Shown here: piece after piece, positions 18,086 through 31,361 of the stretch | Position numbering within the stretch: position 1 is the first letter of the stretch | How the letters are laid out: every line of letters begins with the position of its first letter | DNA from: a virus | Strand: one strand, 5' to 3' | IMG/VR virus record: IMGVR_UViG_3300009165_000014 | Span: 1-36,253 of that record | Length of the DNA stretch: 36,253 nt | Program-made: the position numbers and the translations under genes | Notes under the pieces: model-generated | What the model saw: only the letters and a program-made list of their open reading frames with translations | Databases searched by the model: none | Told to the model about the DNA's origin: nothing

Positions 18086-18094
18086 TCTTTTACT

Positions 18095-18167
18095 GGGGAA
18101 TTAGCACAGTTGGTAGTGCGCCTGATTTGCATTCAGGAGGTCAGGAGTTCGAATCTCCTATTCTCCA
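18095..18167 (+). tRNA. tRNA-Ala (anticodon UGC)
   Basis: 73 bases. Acceptor GGGGAAT pairs with ATTCTCC (one G-T). D stem is GCAC/GTGC, anticodon stem CCTGA/TCAGG with loop TTTGCAT (anticodon TGC), and T stem AGGAG/CTCCT with loop TTCGAAT. The discriminator is A and CCA is not encoded. It reads GCA codons, which are frequent in the Ala-rich late proteins of this window. Confidence 0.95.
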
Positions 18168-18172
18168 TTTAC

Positions 18173-18245
18173 GCCCGTGTACTCCAACGGTAGAGAGGGT
18201 GGACTTAGAATCCATACAGTGGAAGTTCGAATCTTCTCACGGGCA
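18173..18245 (+). tRNA. tRNA with anticodon UAG (Leu by anticodon), class I shape
   Basis: 73 bases, five bases after tRNA-Ala. Acceptor GCCCGTG/CACGGGC is perfect. Anticodon stem is GTGGA/TCCAT with loop CTTAGAA, anticodon TAG, which reads CUA Leu. T stem is GGAAG/CTTCT with loop TTCGAAT. The variable loop is only five bases (ACAGT), unlike bacterial tRNA-Leu, which has a long variable arm. The D stem is weak (about 3 pairs). The amino acid identity is therefore less sure than the fold. Confidence 0.85.
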
Positions 18246-18253
18246 TTGAATAA

Positions 18254-18261
18254 GATAAATA
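18254..18261 (+). promoter_or_regulatory. Possible late promoter (GATAAATA)
   Basis: GATAAATA starts nine bases after the second tRNA and 59 bases before the ATG at 18313. It is a one-base variant of the T4 late box, and the gene it precedes is of virion type. Confidence 0.45.
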
Positions 18262-18312: not shown

Positions 18313-19653
18313 ATGAAAACATTTCCTCAATTTATAAATGAAGCAACCTCAGCTTCGGTTCAAGCAAAACGTCTTGGACTTGTTGGCGATGGGCATGGGG
18401 GGTGGTATAATAGGGCGACAGGCGAATTTGAAGCCAAGACCATGGGACAAGAATTGAAGTATTTCAACAAAAGACAGGTTATTGGGGGCAGGGATCCAAA
18501 GCAGAGTGAATTTGAGAAGAATATTCCTTTAGGATCTTCGGCACCGGCACCTGTCGCTCCTGCTGTTGCTCCTCCTCCCCAAGAATCTATCCCTGTAGAT
18601 CAGCAAGCAATGGGTCAAGAACCTGTTGCTCAGGAACCAGTAGTAACTCCGCCTCCCGTGCCTAAAACCAAGGGAACTATTACAATTGCTTTTGGTCGTT
18701 TTAATCCACCAACTATTGGACATCAACAATTGATGGACACTGCCGCTATGGCAGCAATGGAAGACGGTGGTGATTATATTATCGTGCCTTCACGTAGTCA
18801 GGATAAAAAGAAAAATCCCTTGGATCCTGATACTAAAATCTCATTTATGAGAAAAATGTTTCCAGATCATAGTGAAAGAATTGTTAATGATGTAAATTAT
18901 AGAACTATTTTTGATGTCCTCAAAAAAGCGCATAATGATGGATACACTAATGTAAGAATTATTGGTGGTGCTGACAGGGTTAAAGAATTTGAAAAACTTT
19001 CAAATAATTACAATGGGCAGTTATATCAATTTGATGTAATCGAAGTATTATCATCTGGAGATCGAGATCCTGATGGAAATGGTGTTGAAGGAGTATCTGC
19101 ATCTAGACTTAGACTTGCTGCAGCAGAAGGAGACTTCATGACTTTCCGTGCCTCTCTACCAAAAGGAGTTAGAAATAAGCAGGCACTCGAACTTTTTGAT
19201 TTAGTTCGTCAGGGAATGGGTATACAAGAAATACAGCAGGAAGGATATAACCTTTGGGAAATTGCTCCTAAGTTTGATCAGCAATCTTTAAGAGAAAATT
19301 ATATTGATGAAAATATTTTTAAAGTTGGAAGTTTTGTTGAAAATTTAAATACTGGATTAAATGGCAGAATTATTCGTAGAGGTACTAATTACTTAATTTG
19401 TGTAACTGAAAATGGGATGATGTTCAAGTCTTGGATTAAAGATGTTAGGGAGTCTTACTCTGAAAAAACGATGTCAAGGATTTCAAGACTTCCTGGAAAA
19501 CCAAATACTTTAATAGGAACTCTTGGTTATTTTAAGTATGCTGCAAAAATGACTCCTGGAGCAGTTGGAACTGGATCTGAAAATCTTCAAGTCGGTGGAA
19601 TACCATATGGTATTAATTTGATAAATAAAAATAGGAAAAAAGTAAAACGTTAA
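18313..19653 (+). CDS. Nucleotidyltransferase with a capsid-targeting-like N-terminus
   Basis: 446 residues. The start MKTFPQFINEA closely resembles the T4 capsid-targeting sequence MKTYQEFIAEA of internal proteins, and INE-A fits the T4 prohead-protease consensus (L/I-x-E, then A/G). Residues about 75-118 are a Pro/Gln-rich linker. A cytidylyltransferase-like fold begins at 120: ITIAFGRFNPPTIGH (HxGH-like, TIGH at 134-137), RIIGGADRVKEFEKL, and VSASRLR (261-267, the ISxxxxR-like motif). Residues about 330-380 look like a small SH3/KOW-type domain (GLNGRIIRRGTNYLI). Likely an adenylyl- or cytidylyltransferase packaged in the head and injected; the packaging is inferred. Confidence 0.8.
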   Translation: MKTFPQFINEATSASVQAKRLGLVGDGHGGWYNRATGEFEAKTMGQELKYFNKRQVIGGRDPKQSEFEKNIPLGSSAPAPVAPAVAPPPQESIPVDQQAMGQEPVAQEPVVTPPPVPKTKGTITIAFGRFNPPTIGHQQLMDTAAMAAMEDGGDYIIVPSRSQDKKKNPLDPDTKISFMRKMFPDHSERIVNDVNYRTIFDVLKKAHNDGYTNVRIIGGADRVKEFEKLSNNYNGQLYQFDVIEVLSSGDRDPDGNGVEGVSASRLRLAAAEGDFMTFRASLPKGVRNKQALELFDLVRQGMGIQEIQQEGYNLWEIAPKFDQQSLRENYIDENIFKVGSFVENLNTGLNGRIIRRGTNYLICVTENGMMFKSWIKDVRESYSEKTMSRISRLPGKPNTLIGTLGYFKYAAKMTPGAVGTGSENLQVGGIPYGINLINKNRKKVKR

Positions 19654-21211: not shown

Positions 21212-21218
21212 ATAAATA
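21211..21218 (+). promoter_or_regulatory. T4-type late promoter
   Basis: TATAAATA, the T4 late -10 consensus, 31 bases before the structural gene at 21250 and directly continuous with the terminator T-tract. Confidence 0.8.
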
Positions 21219-21249: not shown

Positions 21250-21804
21250 ATGGCTCTTTGGGGCAATAAAGATTCTTTAAGCACGGGTCTTACTGGAACT
21301 ATAACGATCAATCTTGCTACTGAAACCGTAGATGGTAGTGGTACAGCATTTGTAACTGCTGGAATTTCAACAGGAGATATTCTTGTAGTTGGTGTTGGCG
21401 CTACTTATGGTCAGGCAGTAATTACAGGAGTAACTTCTGCTACTCAACTTTCCATTGGTTCAACTCAATTCTTGATTCCTTTAAATGGTGCGATTGCTGG
21501 TGCTGCATATACAGTAACTCAGAAACCAAAGTATACTCTTGAAGATGGGCAATACTTTGCACCTGATGTAAAGTCAAATAGATTTTCTACTGTTGTTGGT
21601 GTAGATACTACTGAAGTTGGTATTGCTCGCACAACTACCGTTGGTGGAAAAGCGGGTGCTTATGGTGTTACTCATGCTGGATGGGTTGGTATTACTACCT
21701 ATGTTGATAACCATGGCAATTTTAGAGTTAAAACAGAAACTTTAGTTGCAGGAAGCATGATTACTGGTGATGCAAACGATGACACTAGATATCCAGATAG
21801 CTGA
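21250..21804 (+). CDS. Virion structural protein, beta-rich, 184 aa
   Basis: Starts MALWGNKDSLSTG after AAGGAA. The sequence is rich in Gly, Thr, Val and Ala with alternating beta-like pattern (GTITINLATETVDGSGTAF), and it ends with THAGWVGITTYVDNHGNFR and a METLV-like segment ETLVAGSMITGDANDD. I recognise this opening and ending as typical of cyanophage virion proteins (MALWG..., THAGW...ETLVA). The preceding perfect late promoter supports a structural role. The exact position in the particle is unknown. Confidence 0.82.
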   Translation: MALWGNKDSLSTGLTGTITINLATETVDGSGTAFVTAGISTGDILVVGVGATYGQAVITGVTSATQLSIGSTQFLIPLNGAIAGAAYTVTQKPKYTLEDGQYFAPDVKSNRFSTVVGVDTTEVGIARTTTVGGKAGAYGVTHAGWVGITTYVDNHGNFRVKTETLVAGSMITGDANDDTRYPDS

Positions 21805-27395: not shown

Positions 27396-28370
27396 ATGTC
27401 TAGAATTACGGGAACTGATGCTTTCAATATGATGGAAGCATATAACGCTGTTTATGCTCCACAAGAACTTACAGAAGAGCAAGTTCAAGAAGACTTTGAA
27501 AACTGGGTAGATTCCCTTGTAGAAGAGGGTCATGACCTGAGTGAGTATACTTGGGAAGATATGTATGAAGAGTATCTTAATGAGATGGGGCAGAGAGCAA
27601 CCACTGGGCAAATGACTGCGCCCCGTAATGCTCCACAAACATCAGCAAAACCAGCACCGTCACAAGCAACTCGTCCTGCCGGTGGTGGTATGGGAGGATT
27701 GCGAGGTAGTGGAAGAGATAGAACTTCATATCAAACTAGTTCTTCTCCTGGAGCACTCAGAGTAAATCCATCTTCTGCACCATATCAATCTCGTTTTGCA
27801 GGTGCTCGTGATGCTGCTTTTAATAGAGCAAGACAAATTCAAGGTTCTCCCGTAGTTGGACCAAGAGTTGCAGCACCAGCAGCAAGACCTGCAGCGCAAG
27901 CACCAGCAGCAGCACCTACAAGACCTGTTGCACCAACTTCACCAAAACCATCTCCAACAACTACAACTGCTCCCGCAACCGCTCCCGCAACCGCTCCAGC
28001 AGCACCTGCGAGAACTTTTAATCCTTTAATGCAGAGAACCTTTGGTTATCAGAGTGGATATGCTCCAAGTCAAGTTAAGCAAGATCCTAAAAAGATGGCA
28101 CAAATGGGATCATTGAGAAGTATTAGTTCTTCATTTGACCCATTTGATATTGTTCAAGGATATCTGATTGATGAAGGTTATGCTGATACTGAAGAGGCAG
28201 CAGCAGTTATCATGGCAAACATGAGTGAAGAATGGAAAACGCAGATTCTTGAGTCTGGTTACTTTCCAACGAAAGAATCTCAAAAAGAAGATGAAAAAAA
28301 GTATAAAATGGGTGGTTCATCTGTAAAGCACAGAAATATTGCAACCCAATCACCAAAACCATCTAGATAA
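27396..28370 (+). CDS. Virion-type modular protein, 324 aa
   Basis: Residues 27-64 hold module B (EEQ...NWVDSLVEEGHDLSEYTWEDMY), also found at the C-terminus of the protein at 29853. Residues about 65-240 are low-complexity Ala/Pro/Thr/Gly sequence with a 12-base ACC/GCT/CCC/GCA repeat. Residues 247-286 hold module A (FDIVQGYLIDEGYADTEEAA...MANMSEEWKTQILE), related to the C-termini at 804 and to 419-460 of the protein at 29853. The preceding perfect late promoter argues for a virion or internal head protein. The function of the modules is unknown. Confidence 0.75.
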   Translation: MSRITGTDAFNMMEAYNAVYAPQELTEEQVQEDFENWVDSLVEEGHDLSEYTWEDMYEEYLNEMGQRATTGQMTAPRNAPQTSAKPAPSQATRPAGGGMGGLRGSGRDRTSYQTSSSPGALRVNPSSAPYQSRFAGARDAAFNRARQIQGSPVVGPRVAAPAARPAAQAPAAAPTRPVAPTSPKPSPTTTTAPATAPATAPAAPARTFNPLMQRTFGYQSGYAPSQVKQDPKKMAQMGSLRSISSSFDPFDIVQGYLIDEGYADTEEAAAVIMANMSEEWKTQILESGYFPTKESQKEDEKKYKMGGSSVKHRNIATQSPKPSR

Positions 28371-28420: not shown

Positions 28421-28427
28421 ATAAATA
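28420..28427 (+). promoter_or_regulatory. T4-type late promoter
   Basis: TATAAATA, 20 bases before the ATG at 28448, continuous with the terminator T-tract. Confidence 0.8.
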
Positions 28428-28447: not shown

Positions 28448-29809
28448 ATGAAGTCTTTTAGTCAATTTTTGGAAGAATCATATTTGAATGAAGGTGTAGC
28501 ACCTAGTGAAAGGAGACCAGCAAGAAAAAGAAGAAGTGGTGGACCTACTCCAGAAGAAGTGAAGGCAGGTATTGATAAAAGAGAAGCAGAACAAGCAGCA
28601 AAAAAAGCACAAAGAAAACCATCCGGTGCTGCTGCTAGATCAGATCTTCAATTTAAATCAACGAAAGTTCAGAGTCCAACAACTCCAAAAAAACCATCTG
28701 GTGCTGCTCGTGATGTCTGGAAGCAATTTCCCGGAAAAGCACAGAAACAATATGGTCTTCCAAAAGAAGGACCATCAACTCGTCTTCCCGGAAGAACACT
28801 AGAACCTGCAGGCGGAACAACTCCAAAACCTTCTTTACCTGGATCTGGACAAACGCAAAGAGGCGGTCAATTAGCAATAAGACCAACAACATCAAGTCAA
28901 TTGGCAACAAGACCAACATCAACTTCAACAATTACTAAACCACAAAAACCTGTTGAAGTTAAAGATGTAACTAATCAAAGAAGGGCGGCCGCCGATATTA
29001 AAGCAAGAAGAGCAGCTGCTGGAACTGGACCAAGTGGAAAATCAATTGTAACTCCTCCACCAGCGTCTTCTGGAGCAAAACAGTTACCTGCAGGTACTTC
29101 TGGAGGAAAACCACCTTCTGGACCAAAAATCAAAGTACCATCAGGACTTGCAAAAGCAGGCAAAGTTGCTGGTAAAATTCTTGGACCTGCTGCCGCTGCA
29201 CTTGACGTTGCAGATGAAAAGGCAAAAGGATCTGGGTGGGCAAGATCGCTCGCTAAGGGTGCTGCAGTCGCTGCTGGTGGTGCTTTAGGTGGTGCTGCAG
29301 GTAGTATTGCTGGTCCAGTTGGATCAATTGGTGGAGCAACAGTAGGATCGATGGCAGCATCTAAAGCATTTGATGTTGCTGCTGGTGCTAATGCTAAAGA
29401 AAGAAAAGCGATGGCAACAGCAAATCGTCAAAAGCAATCGGGAACTGCTATTAAAGGTATTGGTGGTCCTACCAGTTTTGACACCAAAAAGAATACAATG
29501 ACTACTGGTTCTGGATCACAAAGAAAAACAGTTGCTCTTGCCAAAACTGGTGTTGTTCAGCGTGGTGGACAATCTGTTGCAGGTAATCTTGCATATAAGG
29601 GTGGTAAAGCAGTCTATAAAGCAGGTCCAAGTGCTCAATCCCTTGCCAAAACTTCTTCTAACCCATTAGAAAGAATTGGTAGATCTTTATTTGCCGGCGC
29701 ATACAAACAGCATGATGCCGCTAAAGCAAAACAGGCACTATCAAAAGCAAGACAATCTGATGCTGCTCGCAATAAAGCACTTGGAGTAAAAGCACTTCCT
29801 GGTAAGTGA
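28448..29809 (+). CDS. Capsid-targeted-like glycine-zipper protein, 453 aa
   Basis: Starts MKSFSQFLEESYLNEG, similar to the T4 capsid-targeting sequence MKTYQEFIAE and with two prohead-protease-like sites, LEE-S and LNE-G. It is then Lys/Pro/Ser/Ala-rich (residues about 20-255) with many basic residues. Residues about 260-315 are a Gly/Ala hydrophobic stretch with G-x3-G spacing (AAVAAGGALGGAAGSIAG), a glycine zipper that can insert in membranes. The end is basic. It could be an injected head protein that helps DNA cross the cell envelope; that is inference. It has its own late promoter. Confidence 0.72.
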   Translation: MKSFSQFLEESYLNEGVAPSERRPARKRRSGGPTPEEVKAGIDKREAEQAAKKAQRKPSGAAARSDLQFKSTKVQSPTTPKKPSGAARDVWKQFPGKAQKQYGLPKEGPSTRLPGRTLEPAGGTTPKPSLPGSGQTQRGGQLAIRPTTSSQLATRPTSTSTITKPQKPVEVKDVTNQRRAAADIKARRAAAGTGPSGKSIVTPPPASSGAKQLPAGTSGGKPPSGPKIKVPSGLAKAGKVAGKILGPAAAALDVADEKAKGSGWARSLAKGAAVAAGGALGGAAGSIAGPVGSIGGATVGSMAASKAFDVAAGANAKERKAMATANRQKQSGTAIKGIGGPTSFDTKKNTMTTGSGSQRKTVALAKTGVVQRGGQSVAGNLAYKGGKAVYKAGPSAQSLAKTSSNPLERIGRSLFAGAYKQHDAAKAKQALSKARQSDAARNKALGVKALPGK

Positions 29810-29852: not shown

Positions 29853-31361
29853 ATGTCTAGAATTTCGCAAGACTTCATTAATAATATTGGATATTTGTAT
29901 GAAGAAATTAATATTCAGCAAAATGATTTTTTAAATGAAGACTCTCAATATTATGATGCGGAAGCAGCAGAAATAGTAGAGGATATTCTTTCTACTATTT
30001 CTGCATCGATGGTTTGTGAAGGATATAGTGCAGAAGGCATTATTGGATTTCTTGCAGATTCATCAGAAGAAACAATTATTGAGAAGTATTTAAGTTTTGA
30101 TGAAAATATTCTGTTGGAAGGTAAAGTATCTGATGAATATGTTGTAGAACAATTAGATATTTTTGATGCTGCAATTAATGAGGGTTTGGGATCATTAGTT
30201 GGAAAAGTTGCTAAAGGTGCAGTTGGATTAGCAAGTAGAGTTGCATCAAAACCTGCAAGAGCAAAGATTGCTCAAAAATTAGTAACTTCTAAAAATCCAG
30301 AAAAAACAAGACAAGCAGCACAAAGACTTGCTCAAAGAGAAGCAAGAAAAGGAGGTGCTGGTGGTTATAGTAAGACCAGTTCACCAATTGATGGTGGAAA
30401 ACCAATGACTGGTAAGCAGTCTGGAGAATTATTAACTAAAGGAAAATTGGGTCAAGCAACACAAAAAGTAAAAGATGTTGCTAATAAAGCAAAAGCAGCA
30501 CTTCCTAAAGTTGCTAAAGGTGCTGGTATATTTGGATTAGGTGCTGCTGGTGGATTTGTAGGAGCAAAACTTGCAGGAGCAGGTTCTGGAGCAAAACCAA
30601 CAGAATCACCAAAACCATCTGCAACAACTACTACTGCTCCTCCTAGTGCCCCCTCTGCACCTAGTTCTTCTGCACCATCAGGTGGTGGAGGATCTGCATC
30701 ATCAGGTGGTGGTGGAGGATCTGCACCATCAGGTGCTCCTGCAGCAGCAAAACCAAAAGCATCTGTAAAAAACGCCAATCAACAATATAAAGATTTGATC
30801 AAAGCGGGTAAAACAAAAGAAGCAGAAAAACTAGGATTAGAAACTTGGGCAAAAGCAAATCCAAAACTTGCTGCTAAATTGAATGCAGATAGTGCTCAAA
30901 AGGGTACTGGTCAAAGTCAGATGGAAAAAGATGCTGAAGAACTTCGTCAAATGTCAAATAGGTCTAAGCAGCGTCAAGGTGAATTGATGGGTGGTCCAGA
31001 AGGTCCTGGATCAATTAATAAGAAGGATGTTGAAGATTCAATGAAGGCAGAACAGGAAAGACAGAAGAAAAAACTAGAGCAAGAAAAATCTAAGGTTACT
31101 ACTAAAGAATCATATGAACCATATGAAGTTCTTCTGGAGTATCTTCTGAGTAATGGTCATGCAGATAGTATTGAAGAAGCACATTATATTATGTTAGAAA
31201 TGGATGCATCTTCTGTTCAAGCAGTTATGGAAGAGTATGAGGATTATCTACTTGCTGAAGAGGTTTCTGAGTGGGTTGATGGTCTTTTACATGAAGGATA
31301 TGATCTCTCGCAATATACATGGGATGATGTTGTTGCACATTATGTAACTGAATTCCGTTGA
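29853..31361 (+). CDS. Virion-type modular protein, 502 aa
   Basis: Starts MSRISQDFINNIGYLYEEIN. The N-terminal 120 residues are acidic and include LLEG and INEG, which fit the prohead-protease consensus. A Gly zipper (GAGIFGLGAAGGFVGAKLAG, about 223-242) leads to a Ser/Pro/Gly low-complexity tract (about 247-300). A Lys/Gln/Glu-rich region follows. Residues 419-460 form module A (LLEYLLSNGHADSIEEA...IMLEM) and 468-502 form module B (SEWVDGLLHEGYDLSQYTW). Modules A and B are each shared with the protein at 27396, in a different order. Likely an internal or head-associated protein; the function is unknown. Confidence 0.75.
   Translation: MSRISQDFINNIGYLYEEINIQQNDFLNEDSQYYDAEAAEIVEDILSTISASMVCEGYSAEGIIGFLADSSEETIIEKYLSFDENILLEGKVSDEYVVEQLDIFDAAINEGLGSLVGKVAKGAVGLASRVASKPARAKIAQKLVTSKNPEKTRQAAQRLAQREARKGGAGGYSKTSSPIDGGKPMTGKQSGELLTKGKLGQATQKVKDVANKAKAALPKVAKGAGIFGLGAAGGFVGAKLAGAGSGAKPTESPKPSATTTTAPPSAPSAPSSSAPSGGGGSASSGGGGGSAPSGAPAAAKPKASVKNANQQYKDLIKAGKTKEAEKLGLETWAKANPKLAAKLNADSAQKGTGQSQMEKDAEELRQMSNRSKQRQGELMGGPEGPGSINKKDVEDSMKAEQERQKKKLEQEKSKVTTKESYEPYEVLLEYLLSNGHADSIEEAHYIMLEMDASSVQAVMEEYEDYLLAEEVSEWVDGLLHEGYDLSQYTWDDVVAHYVTEFR

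Follow-up and report, generated by a model that had tools for sequence, protein, structure and literature searches.

Introduction

Bacteriophage T4 packages Alt and its internal proteins by means of N-terminal leaders, and Alt is an ADP-ribosyltransferase that is ejected. T4 IPII and IPIII start with MKTYQEFIAEA and IPI with MKTFKEF, as read from NC_000866. Within the T4 leader, residues 4 and 7 matter for targeting, and residues 8 and 10 for processing (PMC9026906).

Puzzling enzymes have been reported repeatedly in cyanophage virions, always with a caveat of contamination. One is a nucleotidyltransferase whose presence in virions is already known from published work. It was detected by mass spectrometry (MS) in CsCl-purified virions of S-SCSM1 (ORF91; PMC9602691), S-CREM2 (ORF154, gp154; PMC10665884), and S-SZBM1 (S-SZBM1_140; PMC9146016). 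Coverage is low, at 2 to 3 peptides per ortholog in S-SZBM1 and S-CREM2 (PMC9146016, PMC10665884), and carry-over in CsCl preparations was raised as possible by the authors (PMC9602691, PMC10665884). A putative counterpart in S-CBWM1 is also cited as virion-detected. A role in NAD metabolism early in infection has already been proposed (PMC9602691). The papers we found that report the S-SCSM1, S-SZBM1, and S-CREM2 enzymes do not mention a capsid-targeting sequence (CTS), and our search of the open-licence literature returned no paper linking a CTS to cyanophages.

Results

A T4-like leader starts a cyanophage nucleotidyltransferase gene

The window is the whole stretch of viral DNA that was analyzed, 36,253 nucleotides (IMG/VR record IMGVR_UViG_3300009165_000014). 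It is part of a T4-like cyanophage genome (Kyanoviridae) that, by synteny and protein identity, lies closest to the freshwater phage S-SRM01. The nucleotidyltransferase gene sits among replication genes, and its product is 83% identical to the S-SRM01 counterpart. Genes for tRNA-Ala(tgc) and tRNA-Leu(tag) lie directly 5' of it (18094-18245, + strand). The features of the locus are as follows, with a slash marking a predicted or known cleavage position.

18254..18261, +, T4-type late-promoter-like GATAAATA, with ATAAATA at 18255, 5' of the tagged gene
18313-19653, +, tagged nucleotidyltransferase ORF, 446 codons, whose ATG start encodes MKTFPQFINEA
18313..18345, +, T4-like capsid-targeting sequence MKTFPQFINE/A, residues 1-11, from T4 tag match and conservation; prohead protease cut predicted after E10
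18346..18495, +, DGHG module, ~residues 12-61, with small beta element AKRLGLVGDGHGGWYNRATGEFEAKT..GxLKF, from HMM; pLDDT about 87-90 to residue 50
18496..18657, +, Pro/Ala/Gln-rich linker, ~residues 62-115; pLDDT mostly 44-62
18658..19212, +, nucleotidyltransferase core, residues 116-300, from Pfam, PHROG, NCBIfam, AlphaFold2, and Foldseek
19294..19560, +, C-terminal beta domain, around residues 328-416, from model and profile search

An earlier note, made from this DNA alone, had pointed to the likeness of the first 11 residues to the T4 tag. This likeness is real. MKTFPQFINEA is identical to the IPII/IPIII leader at 7 of 11 positions, with F for Y at another, and it has aromatic residues at positions 4 and 7, as do the T4 tag proteins (IPI-III, Alt). 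Among the 2,543 start codons of the window, that at 18313 gives the best match to the T4 tag (BLOSUM score 31), followed by ORF 28448 (24) and a third start at 13. The residue-shuffle p value for the 18313 leader is 2e-5. In 56 of 56 distinct relatives, retrieved via the catalytic domain only and with no use of the tag in the search, both the tag and the DGHG module are present. Across these relatives F4, F7, and E10 are invariant or nearly so, along with M1, K2, and A11.

The leader ends in a prohead-protease-like site

The same note had read INE-A as a prohead-protease-like site, and the context of the major capsid protein propeptide agrees with this. As a motif match, the leader end FINE/A has the form expected of a gp21-type site, [LI]xE followed by a small residue. 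The gp23 propeptides end at the same kind of site, SFLSE/A in S-SRM01 and SFLTE/A in T4. By sequence reading, equivalent gp23 sites are LLTE/A in S-CREM2, ILTE/A in S-SZBM1, and FLAE/A in S-SCSM1. The pattern [FLIM][ILMFV]xE[ASGT] occurs once in the whole protein, at the leader end. Head genes are absent from the window; homologs of gp21, gp22, and gp23, constituting a T4-type prohead core and protease, were read from S-SRM01, the closest complete relative. Cleavage between E10 and A11 is predicted from the motif.

A late-promoter motif and a putative virion-gene island

The upstream regions of the relatives carry TAAATA in 50 of 50 cases and ATAAATA in 44 of 50, where 5 would be expected from mononucleotide shuffles. 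In the window, ATAAATA also lies 20-40 bp 5' of ORFs 20986, 21250, 27396, 28448, 29853, and 31468. Its window-wide count is unremarkable (12 against 10.2 expected), so the motif counts only by position and conservation. Two of the genes behind it are the following.

21250..21804, +, 184-aa protein, similar to and positioned like virion proteins S-SZBM1_136 and S-SCSM1_95, from N-termini and synteny; ATAAATA at 21212
28448..29809, +, second tagged ORF, MKSFSQFLEE/SY (MKSFSQFLEESY), 453 aa, pI 10.9, from tag match and S-SRM01 ortholog; ATAAATA at 28421

S-SZBM1_136 is listed by MS in virions (PMC9146016), and the 184-aa protein may belong, with the tagged enzyme, to one group of late virion genes. 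The placement of the motifs fits such an island, set within the replication block. In S-SCSM1, ORFs 89-97 occupy the matching position, and most of these are marked as virion proteins. The second tagged ORF encodes 78 K+R against 25 D+E and resembles a basic internal protein of the phage head. It was overlooked in the earlier reading, as were the module behind the tag and the published virion detection of the orthologs.

Two further ORFs of this region, 27396-28370 and 29853-31361 (both +), share a short acidic DFENWVDSLVEEGHDLSEYTWEDMYEEYL-like segment (phrog_3708/27516), each behind ATAAATA. The start of ORF 27396 resembles that of virion protein S-SCSM1_89 (SEAYAAVY / MEAYNAVY).

The enzyme resembles NMN adenylyltransferases

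The catalytic core carries GRFNPPTIGH (residues 128-137), KKNPL (166-170), GGADR (218-222), and VSASRLR (261-267), which include the NMN adenylyltransferase (NMNAT) signatures GxFxPx(H/T)xGH and (I/V)SxSxxR. Pfam PF01467 (CTP_transf_like) matches residues 125-228 (E 1.4e-6), and phrog_395 cytidyltransferase, a name that is an annotation and not a tested activity, matches residues 116-424 (E 2.1e-99). Structure prediction, which had been proposed for residues 120-300, was run with AlphaFold2. The model (mean pLDDT 81, core >90) has a nucleotidyltransferase Rossmann fold of the NadD/CoaD/NMNAT-like adenylyltransferase kind. Foldseek against the PDB matches it to NadD (E 1.1e-5, TMt 0.57), CoaD, and human NMNAT. 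Searching the PDB by sequence with this protein alone yielded no useful match, and a search with the profile gave weak NadM/NadR matches only. The best-scoring curated NCBIfam profiles are NMN adenylyltransferases, at scores far below the equivalog cut-offs (TIGR01526, 20.6 against 341 bits; TIGR00482, 18.4 against 112). Because of these cut-offs, the protein is called NMNAT-like and is not filed as a member of the NMNAT family.

The description of the enzyme as cytidylyltransferase-like therefore stands at the level of the superfamily (PF01467, phrog_395). As an activity, cytidylyl transfer has support that stops at the superfamily name; Foldseek and NCBIfam favor adenylyltransferases, and the fold is more in line with adenylyl transfer to NMN/NaMN or to phosphopantetheine. 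Between these, on fold and motifs, we lean modestly toward an NMNAT-like enzyme. There is a lesser, still sizeable chance that the protein is packaged by its tag and is a phosphopantetheine adenylyltransferase, an FAD-synthetase-like enzyme, or another nucleotidyltransferase, or acts on a macromolecule. NadD and CoaD score about equally in Foldseek with FAD synthetases lower, the PHROG name is cytidyltransferase, and the NCBIfam scores are low. Against this, the motif set GRFNPP..GH, NPL, and VSASRLR is of the NadM/NadR kind, and the NMNAT profiles are the top curated scores.

Some tagged enzymes elsewhere are fused to a kinase (L112, L118, L160). A NadR-type reading of these fusions was rejected; the kinase half fits zeta-toxin/AAA_33 better. 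In S-SRM01, a minus-strand gene that the record annotates as NAD synthetase (L081:33969-34400) lies ~13 kb from the NMNAT-like gene.

The DGHG module recurs in other cargo

The module, ~40 residues long, follows the tag. A profile built solely from nucleotidyltransferases finds it in the kinases of S-CREM2, MA01, and S-CRM01, with two copies each in the S-CREM2 (L085:10579-12846) and MA01 (L300:2669-4693) kinases. The same profile finds it in large phrog_3561 proteins of S-CREM2 and MA01 and in the related S-CRM01 g128. In these kinases and phrog_3561 proteins the module comes after a tag, either intact or degenerate; in the phrog_3561 group the tag-like leader lies ~15 residues in. By sequence comparison, a module common to nucleotidyltransferases, kinases, and the large phrog_3561 protein appears to be new here. 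It is probably an element that contacts the core or DNA.

The S-CREM2 member of the phrog_3561 group, gp12 (L085:7704-10313), is a virion protein with a tag-like leader and the module. Its label as 'Cas9' cargo was rejected, as it has no Pfam support and matches phrog_3561 of unknown function.

Proteins of 214-215 aa (L077-L080) consist of tag, module, and C-terminal domain with no enzyme. Such enzyme-free versions would suit a protein targeted to the head mainly as a structural or core component, with its catalysis used later or never. We consider this unlikely for the tagged enzyme, since an alignment of 51 sequences shows almost no variation in its active-site motifs.

The tag recurs on unrelated proteins and is associated with virions

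The strict motif occurs eight times in three complete cyanophage genomes, against ~0.2 expected from permuted N-termini, and all eight coincide with annotated gene starts. We also scanned IMG/VR viral contigs with a degenerate DNA pattern for the tag, using the same codons in scrambled order as a control. The tag pattern gave at least 120 matches and the control 11. Of the 126 tag matches listed, 122 open ORFs of at least 50 aa, and the median distance back to an in-frame stop is 6 codons; most control matches are unlike gene starts. The tagged proteins match CTP_transf_like, DUF6267, AAA_33/zeta-toxin-type kinases, GNAT, DPBB, DUF192, and others. S-CRM01 has an island of five adjacent genes with tag-like leaders, a kinase included. 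Two small tagged proteins (L111:3736-4149, L136:1211-1858) look ADP-ribosyltransferase-like by eye (YHGT..., AHYTS...) and have no Pfam match.

All three virion-detected orthologs (S-SCSM1, S-CREM2, S-SZBM1) carry the tag. In S-CREM2, whose MS list holds 52 of 219 proteins, every one of the four strictly tagged proteins is listed (p 0.003): SAM lyase gp6, gp13, protein kinase gp14, and nucleotidyltransferase gp154. The SAM lyase and kinase identities are borne out by Pfam. When the three phages are pooled, virion proteins make up 7 of the 10 tagged proteins (p 4e-4), or 4 of 7 when the nucleotidyltransferases are left out (p 0.02); the pooled set mixes the strict and a looser motif, and its p value is indicative. 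The three misses, S-SZBM1_191, S-SZBM1_192, and S-SCSM1_30, are small, strictly tagged proteins absent from the published virion lists.

The low peptide numbers and the authors' own caution would fit abundant cytoplasmic proteins carried over in the CsCl preparations. This is very unlikely to account for the virion detections, as the S-CREM2 list lacks NrdA/NrdB, DNA polymerase, PhoH, and ssDNA-binding protein while containing all four strictly tagged proteins. That the motif is a conserved helix which these enzymes require to fold or assemble, unrelated to packaging, is highly implausible: the model does place residues 4-20 in a single helix and the tag is kept within the family, but the 11-mer also stands at the start of unrelated proteins (GNAT, DPBB, AAA_33 kinase, DUF6267, SAM lyase, protein kinase), the leader matches T4 tags that were defined by experiment, and tagged proteins occur among virion proteins more often than expected. 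The packaging suggested by the earlier note thus gains support from conservation, unrelated tagged cargo, association with virion proteins, and published MS of orthologs.

Discussion

Taken as a whole, we think it likely that the gene at 18313-19653 encodes a virion nucleotidyltransferase that is packaged through its tag, cut at the predicted site, ejected, and used in an NMN/NaMN-type role. The 11-residue leader would act as a T4-type CTS and bring the enzyme into the prohead core. Cleavage there by the prohead protease, a gp21 homolog, is predicted to follow E10, in the sequence context of its gp23 site. The mature protein, starting at A11, would stay in the head and then be ejected along with the DNA. 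The DGHG module behind the leader would be common to other packaged cargo. Fold and motifs make an NMN/NaMN-type adenylyltransferase the likeliest identity of the enzyme, which may support NAD synthesis at the start of infection and so affect host NAD.

More broadly, it seems fairly probable that a general loading code operates in cyanophages and their marine T4-like relatives: a CTS, in many cases with the DGHG module behind it, would direct a large and varied set of enzymes into the head (NMNAT-like enzymes, a protein kinase, a SAM lyase, an acetyltransferase, nucleotide kinases, and others), and the N-terminus alone would predict injected proteins. A tag that can be read from the sequence, together with its protease site, offers a mechanism, a way to tell true cargo from carry-over, and a pattern for genome-wide searches. 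It may help to identify the proteins that such viruses deliver to host cells, and it makes the injected cargo of T4-like marine phages directly testable.

Among the closest counterparts are S-SCSM1 ORF91, S-CREM2 ORF154, and S-SZBM1 140, where the enzyme is orthologous and the tag is present in all three genomes. The papers found on these phages propose NAD effects without naming the tag, module, or protease site. In the literature searched we found no account of the targeting tag, the cleavage-site match, the recurrence of the tag on other virion enzymes, or the DGHG module.

Like NadM, NadR, and NadD, the enzyme has a Rossmann nucleotidyltransferase fold and the GRF.P..GH, NP, and S.S..R motifs. 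Unlike them, it scores below the family cut-offs, has T for the first His of HxGH, and bears extra N- and C-terminal phage domains.

As in T4 IPI-IPIII and Alt, an N-terminal leader of 10-11 residues, MK.[FY]..F[IL].E/A, ends in a gp23-propeptide-type site, varied cargo stands behind a conserved tag, and, as with Alt, the protein that would be packaged is an enzyme. The locus differs from T4 in having a nucleotidyltransferase as cargo and a DGHG module behind the tag, and in that cleavage and ejection are predicted here. In cyanophages, kinases, a SAM lyase, and other enzymes bear the same tag.
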